DNA of 64,000 nt from Oscillospiraceae bacterium (GTDB taxonomy: Bacteria > Bacillota > Clostridia > Oscillospirales > Acutalibacteraceae). How positions within the stretch are numbered: the stretch's first letter is position 1; each line of letters starts with the position of its first letter. Below are positions 55,696 to 56,229 of this stretch, piece by piece. A model generated the notes under the pieces. The model was given only the letters and a program-made list of their open reading frames with translations. It did no database searches and was not told where the DNA came from. The stretch spans positions 56,583 through 120,582 of the forward strand of contig SVPE01000008.1 of NCBI GenBank assembly GCA_015066015.1. The letters run 5' to 3'. The position numbers and the translations under genes were made by a program.

Positions 55696-55736
55696 ACGGG
55701 GAGGCGGACGCGCTGCAGGCGCGTCCGCCTCCCCGT
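55696..55736. repeat. Palindromic intergenic repeat, copy C (single long hairpin)
   Basis: ACGGGGAGGCGGACGCGC tgcag GCGCGTCCGCCTCCCCGT, 18-bp perfect stem. Confidence 0.85.
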
Positions 55737-55841: not shown

Positions 55842-56229
55842 AAAAGCACCCCGAGAGAGACACTTCGTAAAGAAGTTGTCGCTCTCGGTTTTTATCGTAA
55901 TAAAAAAATGACACTTTACACAAGGATTGTGAAAGTGTCATAGTGGGTTACACACTTTGAAAAAAGGTAAATACTTGCCGAAAGACAACGGATTCTTTTT
56001 TCGGCTTGTGAAGTGAAGTTTTTGCTAACGCAAAAGTGAAGTTGCTCACTTTGTTCGCAGTGAAGTTTGGTCTTGCTGATCAAGTGAAGTTAAGTTTGCC
56101 CACTTCGCCGTAGGCGAAACTTCACTGTCCGCAGGACAACTTCACTATCGTAGATAACTTCACTTGCCCGAAAGGGCAAACTTAGTTGAGGCGCACTTCC
56201 TTACGGAGTGCGCCTCGAAGGGTGCTTTT
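55842..56229. mobile_element. Composite hairpin element with GTGAAGTT array (MITE-like or structured RNA)
   Basis: Terminal AAAAGCACCC/GGGTGCTTTT inverted repeat; 55852-55890 CCGAGAG hairpin; TGACACTTTACACAA/TTGTGAAAGTGTCA hairpin; GTGAAG at 56013, 56036, 56060, 56084; CTTCAC at 56120, 56140, 56158; terminal GAGGCGCACT/AGTGCGCCTC hairpin. Confidence 0.6.

Follow-up and report, generated by a model that had tools for sequence, protein, structure and literature searches.

A question is raised by the window, the 64-kb stretch of DNA analysed here, since a regular array of short repeats and small hairpins lies between two of its convergent protein genes: what is this array, and what brought it to this place? 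The original prediction had described GTGAAG at 56013, 56036, 56060 and 56084, then inverted CTTCAC at 56120, 56140 and 56158, with a 23-24 bp period and hairpin spacers between the units. All of these features were recovered, the spacers by an inverted-repeat reading of the window sequence, and an additional GTGAAG was found at 56008. The full repeat unit is AGTGAAGTT, which starts at 56012, 56035, 56059 and 56083 (steps of 23, 24 and 24) and returns in the inverted orientation at 56118, 56138 and 56156. The 64-kb window contains this unit 8 times for 0.69 expected, a level reached by 0 of 100 shuffles. A chance origin was rejected on the basis of this enrichment and of the recurrence of such arrays across the genus and the order. 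A CRISPR array was rejected too, the repeats being of 9 bp versus about 23-47 bp, the spacers palindromic and the second half inverted.

The left half-array (56012-56091, forward strand) contains four AGTGAAGTT units with their hairpin spacers and gives a weak match to the Gut-1 RNA (56011-56095, E 2e-4). The right half-array (56114-56188, reverse strand), which carries the inverted units, corresponds to the Rfam Gut-1 RNA (RF01706), with a cmscan score of 57.4 bits (E 9e-9) exceeding the gathering score of 50. The earlier statement that no known feature class explains the layout thus stands in so far as no ordinary class covers everything, and fails for the right half-array, which Gut-1 covers. 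This half is surrounded by an inverted pair (56091-56184, I11), TAAGTTTGCCC at 56091-56101 and GGGCAAACTTA at 56174-56184, complementary at 11 of 11 positions, a layout also seen in relatives. When the region was folded as single-stranded DNA, an energy of -93.9 kcal/mol was obtained for -47.7 kcal/mol in shuffles (z -9.7), and the array alone folded as RNA gave a z of -5.9. Gut-1 goes back to human-gut metagenomes, from which it was described as a probable ncRNA, with no function given (Weinberg et al. 2010, PMC2864571; Rfam). One explanation is that the array is an sRNA gene, transcribed as Gut-1 RNA and acting in trans, as the Rfam label 'Gene; sRNA' says. The score above the gathering cut-off, the stability of the array as an RNA fold and the grade of 'certainly RNA' given to Gut-1 by Weinberg 2010 (PMC2864571) are in agreement with it, whereas the conserved pairing would suit single-stranded DNA equally well.

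The search of the same genome and of relatives that the original prediction had proposed found arrays dispersed in both, so that the result named there as refuting, a lack of further arrays in all genomes, did not arise. In the same genome, 26 Gut-1 matches were obtained at E<=10, 10 of them above the cut-off; the family is present in 24 of 34 genomes of the genus (E<=1e-6), in 105 of 297 genomes of the order (E<=1e-8) and in 4 of 398 genomes of a phylum-wide sample, two of the four being the same genome and another one of the order. The repeat word varies across copies (TGAAGT, TGATAT, TGAAAT, TGATGT, TGATGC, TGAAGC, TGTTAT/TTTTAT, TGAATT) and is consistent within a copy, an array containing its own word 6.1 times on average for 0.28 for the words of other arrays. 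Such wide differences between copies, which lie at many unrelated sites, argue against a trans-acting sRNA. Between arrays, left units and inverted right units vary in concert, and pairing between the halves is therefore preserved, the fully left-right paired structure lying 2.7-3.6 kcal/mol above the predicted minimum. The array end adjoins a strong hairpin (score of at least 9) in 11 of 18 matches of the same genome, against 1 of 360 control positions. In genome G003, a Gut-1 array (L088, L113; G003:C9:11809-12148) is strongly expanded, with far more units than usual, so array length can grow. Half-arrays terminating in GGGTCTGCGACGC were also observed upstream of genes (L014, L015, L027, L099); this tail was rejected as a common end, with only five scattered matches in the same genome.

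The array proved genuine and, as had been claimed, belongs to a composite element, to which the present analysis adds a putative oriT module, an insertion between GA borders and a PF05635 partner. This element extends from 55853 to 56218 on the forward strand (366 bp including GA at 55853-55854 and GA at 56217-56218), has no coding sequence and is ordered as left hairpin, MobV-type oriT, GTGAAGTT/hairpin array and right hairpin, with GA borders on both sides. The left hairpin, CCGAGAGAGACACTTCGTAAAGAAGTTGTCGCTCTCGG followed by TTTTTAT (55851-55888, forward strand, inverted repeat I10), borrows host letters for its CC/GG base. The right, closing hairpin GAGGCGCACTTCCTTACGGAGTGCGCCTC (56188-56216, I13) is identical at 32 of 32 positions in G057, a genome from another family of the same order, and the two end hairpins have only the core CACTTC..TA.G.AGT in common (D2, 75%). 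A small hairpin, GCCGAAA...TTTCGGC (55977-56005, forward strand), appears from a reading of the sequence to separate the oriT from the array and is kept in composite relatives. Outside the element, the window contains a perfect 14-bp hairpin just ahead of it (GGAGGCGGACGCGC/GCGCGTCCGCCTCC, 55700-55732) and a THF riboswitch (RF01831, 47975-48074, 79.8 bits).

The borders were given by a second copy found on contig C5 in a search of the same genome, 100% identical over the 366 bp; both copies have GA at the left and at the right border. The ends proposed at first, AAAAGCACCC and GGGTGCTTTT, had to be abandoned, as both are arms of the host terminator and are absent from the flanks of the C5 copy, whose terminator arms are AAAAAACCTGC and GCAGGTTTTTT. 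Because identical copies sit within different terminators, the outer arms belong to the host: in the window, the 5' arm of a bidirectional terminator (55842-55852, AAAAGCACCC plus the loop C) and its 3' arm (56219-56229, A plus GGGTGCTTTT), both outside the element. Joining the flanks at a single GA yields AAAAAAGCACCCCGAAGGGTGCTTTT for the window and AAAAAACCTGCTCCCGAAGGGCAGGTTTTTTT for C5. The window flanks so joined fold into a single hairpin of -14.2 kcal/mol (z -5.0; the junction as folded was one C shorter than AAAAAAGCACCCCGAAGGGTGCTTTT, which leaves the stem unaffected). Three composites of other genomes were treated likewise, giving AAAAGGGAGTC-TGAT-GACTCCCTTTTT in G033 (L079), AAAAAGGCTCC-GATA-GGAGCCTTTTT in G057 (L080, of the other family of the order) and AAAAGGGAGTGC-AACG-GCACTCCCTTTT in G058, the latter assembled from two contig ends. 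In all five composites (window, C5, G033, G057 and G058), the joined flanks give a terminator with a loop of 3-5 nt and a fold of -14.2 to -19 kcal/mol (z -5 to -7.4), and the border dinucleotide is GA in four of the five and AA in G058. The flank helices measure 10-12 bp in the four unambiguous composites, and 10 bp is reached by 0.12% of random flank pairs. Dispersal, the identical copy, the GA borders and the insertion into terminator loops together make the mobility of the element well supported. In the related composites L192 and L081, a terminator arm of 10-13 bp is duplicated (AAGTGGGGAA; TACGGTGCGGATT) without a GA core, and a second insertion route may therefore exist.

The site between convergent genes, the terminator arms retained and the terminator-like appearance of both end hairpins could also point to a mainly regulatory role, the element being selected, like some REP elements, for stronger bidirectional termination or for protection of mRNA 3' ends. 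However, in 29 congeners the orthologous place past the same metallophosphatase gene, to the extent that it was read, showed no array, and these congeners end the gene with ordinary short terminators; furthermore, termination needs neither an oriT nor borders with a 2-bp core. We consider this role very unlikely as the main explanation. In G004, the orthologous place carries two hairpins that are alike to the end hairpins of the element only.

The second part of the element to be recognized is the oriT-like module (55908-55965, forward strand), composed of a stem ATGACACTTT/AAAGTGTCAT, the 21-mer GAAAGTGTCATAGTGGGTTAC (55931-55951) and an inverted repeat (...ACACACTTTG). The 21 consecutive bases are invariant in seven sequences, including the stretches that immediately precede six Mob_Pre (MobV) genes, three of which were confirmed by Pfam (PF01076), and the whole module matches stretches upstream of Mob_Pre genes in relatives and in the IncHI2 plasmid pD610-HI2. 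MobV origins of transfer are built as an inverted repeat surrounding GTG(T/G)G/TTA, the nick being between G and T, which served here as a lead. Judged by its sequence, the module is a putative MobV-type oriT. No match to a Mob_Pre relaxase (PF01076) was obtained in the assembly of the same genome (91% complete, 42 contigs), and control genomes were equally silent. Plasmids match the oriT part only and not the rest of the element, and a search for phage carriage of the element gave no match. On the Klebsiella IncHI2 plasmid (L123; NZ_MG288680.1, pD610-HI2), the oriT core of the window element lies in a block together with TnpV, MobV ('plasmid recombination protein') and TnpW; the same block encodes a DUF4368 recombinase-like protein and a bifunctional aminoglycoside resistance gene.

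Left-type hairpins precede TnpV genes (PF14198) in relatives. Several TnpV genes are solitary (L181, L182, L183, L185, L186), with a left-type hairpin ahead nested in a terminator-like stem, and these loci may be small elements in their own right. A full integrative mobilizable element with the same left end was looked for and rejected, as the loci with only the left hairpin carry solitary TnpV and no complete element was recovered. Serine recombinases leave a shared 2-bp core and no further duplication. Tn4451 has numerous integration sites, at which GA is used (PMC5704250). In the composites found in other genomes, the array stays between the oriT and the right hairpin despite another word (a GTGATATT-like word occurs in the composites of G033, G057 and contig C9 of the same genome), and this constant position indicates that the array is an integral part of the element.

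What the array does is best approached through the loci where a similar array stands beside a gene. A recurrent order, [tRNA]-[terminator]-[array]-[promoter]-[PF05635 gene], was found, including on contigs C32 and C15 of the same genome; at the window copy, the PF05635 gene is absent beside the array, and the array linked to the C15 gene has the word TGAAGT, as in the window. Among the matches listed, a Gut-1 match lies within 700 bp of 11 of the 106 PF05635 genes in the genus, for 0.28 expected, and a reading of the loci that includes arrays under the listing threshold gives arrays at 24 of the 60 PF05635 genes examined. In a tree of 59 PF05635 proteins, all 24 array-linked proteins fall in a single clade of 26 (UFBoot 100, SH-aLRT 98); of the two remaining members, L168 has an array remnant and L262 perhaps one. 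The distance between words follows that between proteins (Mantel r 0.44, p 2e-5); in 18 of 24 cases the closest protein relative shares the word, for 2.6 expected. These values rest on hand-checked words, since some of the automatically chosen ones are homopolymer or heptamer artefacts, which accounts for a weaker yet significant correlation with the latter (r 0.31, p 2.5e-4). As co-divergence is expected from linkage alone, this result shows that the array and the PF05635 gene are one inherited unit and does not show binding. The protein itself matches 2rld (E 4e-20), an uncharacterized four-helix protein of solved structure, and PF05635 has been linked to Avd of diversity-generating retroelements (PMC10053308). 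A link of Gut-1 with PF05635 or with mobility was not found in the searchable literature. Two side observations concern these loci: the same downstream gene lies behind PF05635 genes of two array clades (L157 and L159; TGAAAT and TGATAT), a possible exchange of cargo, and at L164 the array-side hairpin GAAGCACGATTTC-AAATA-GAAATCGTGCTTC contains the stop codon of the upstream gene, so that its 3' arm may date from insertion.

The gene-linked loci also bear on two of the explanations. In 12 of 24 cases, the array is followed by an exact -10 box (TATAAT) ahead of the PF05635 gene, which places the array outside the transcript of that gene; as these arrays also follow a terminator, they are probably outside both transcripts. 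Together with the varied words, this leaves the trans-acting sRNA unlikely. According to another explanation, the array would be a passive by-product, hairpin-prone DNA that grew near terminators when replication slipped or switched template and was later copied around. Slippage could indeed produce the homogeneity of units inside an array, and the long array of G003 shows that array length is variable; but the same order (four units, then the central inverted pair, then the inverted units) is repeated from family to family under different words, the arrays are tied to a single PF05635 clade, and the 366-bp copy is exact with its oriT included. We regard such an origin as distinctly improbable.

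PF05635 genes without Gut-1-type arrays were found to have repeats of another kind, with a tandem heptamer run upstream in 25 of 36 and flanking inverted arms of at least 12 nt in 28 of 36, for 0 of 23 array-linked PF05635 genes with either feature. A period of 7 is the best in 25 of 25 runs, random stretches from the same loci contain heptamer runs in 11.7% of cases, and the heptamer word is correlated with PF05635 protein distance (r 0.54, p 5e-5). At a number of loci (L169, on contig C36 of the same genome, L172 and L224-L263), PF05635 genes of other clades lie between inverted tandem heptamer arrays. The rRNA intervening sequence of Coxiella has tandem heptamers upstream of the S23 ORF, with a copy number that varies between strains, and rRNA intervening sequences replace the tetraloop of an RNA hairpin (PMC4990558). 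Taken together, the linkage of both kinds of arrays, the Coxiella heptamers and the replacement of a tetraloop suggest that PF05635 genes generally travel with short-repeat arrays and prefer hairpin sites.

We consider it likely that the window contains a 366-bp non-autonomous mobile element lying in the loop of a bidirectional terminator and made of a mobilizable-element module and a PF05635-type array. The first module would comprise the end hairpins, the GA at both borders and the MobV-type oriT, as in Tn4451-like integrative mobilizable elements; a TnpX-like serine recombinase supplied in trans most likely moves the element within the genome, and a MobV relaxase, also in trans, could transfer it between cells as single-stranded DNA from the oriT. 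The second module would be the Gut-1-type repeat-hairpin array, with autonomous relatives that have a terminator on one side and a PF05635 gene on the other. The array, whether as single-stranded DNA or as RNA, most likely folds into a branched form through pairing of its left units with the inverted right ones, and this folded form is most likely the recognition substrate of a PF05635 protein, the one encoded on C15 of the same genome, with the same word, being the candidate partner for the window array. We infer that single-stranded DNA is the acting form. Several gains from the array could be envisaged: (i) recognition; (ii) a start for the second strand; and (iii) protection. It is possible, though we propose it only tentatively, that PF05635 (IVP/S23/Avd-like) proteins provide specificity or mobility to a wide class of mobile elements with short-repeat arrays as nucleic-acid substrates, with octamer-hairpin Gut-1 arrays in one clade and inverted heptamer arrays in others, rRNA intervening sequences among them, and with insertion directed to hairpins such as terminators.

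The Gut-1 match, the MobV oriT and the Tn4451-like borders belong to what is already known; Gut-1 as mobile DNA, its PF05635 partner, the concerted words and the insertion into terminator loops appear new as far as searchable papers show. An orphan RNA family, Gut-1, with no function since 2010, gains a genomic home as mobile DNA. PF05635, functionally enigmatic since rRNA intervening sequences were described, gains a testable partner in arrays whose word follows the protein. The preference for terminator loops spares genes, and each small coding-free chromosomal element with a putative MobV oriT could be a place from which chromosomal DNA is mobilized by conjugation.

Compared with known systems, the element shares with REP/BIME sequences and their RAYT, and with MITEs, the character of short, dispersed, palindromic intergenic DNA with non-autonomous copies as well as copies beside a cognate gene; in contrast, the partner found here is PF05635 and not a Y1 or DDE transposase, and the element has arrays of several units, each array keeping to one word, and no long terminal inverted repeat. 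As in MITEs, it is short and non-coding, has two identical copies in its genome, and its orthologous place is empty in congeners. Relative to the PF05635-linked array elements, the window array has the inverted second half and the adjoining hairpin and is missing a PF05635 gene of its own. With the 23S rRNA intervening sequences encoding the S23/IVP protein, the autonomous relatives of the element share the PF05635 family, and these intervening sequences likewise take the place of a small tetraloop in an RNA hairpin, the Coxiella one having heptamers upstream of its ORF (PMC4990558); the window copy, however, is intergenic rather than in rRNA, has no ORF and carries an octamer-hairpin instead of a heptamer array. 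Tn4451/Tn4453 (TnpX, TnpV, TnpZ=MobV) have in common with it a GA-bounded insertion, what reads as a MobV-type oriT, and the TnpV-associated end hairpin, whereas the element is only 366 bp long, gene-free, located in terminator loops and bears a repeat-hairpin array; being non-coding, without an integrase or relaxase of its own, it is therefore at most a Tn4451-type derivative served in trans. Finally, Rfam Gut-1 (RF01706) has the same hairpin-and-repeat units, with the right half-array above its gathering score, but it models 77 nt and one half only, whereas the full unit here is a two-halved array of about 175 nt that is mobile, has varied words and is linked to PF05635 genes.
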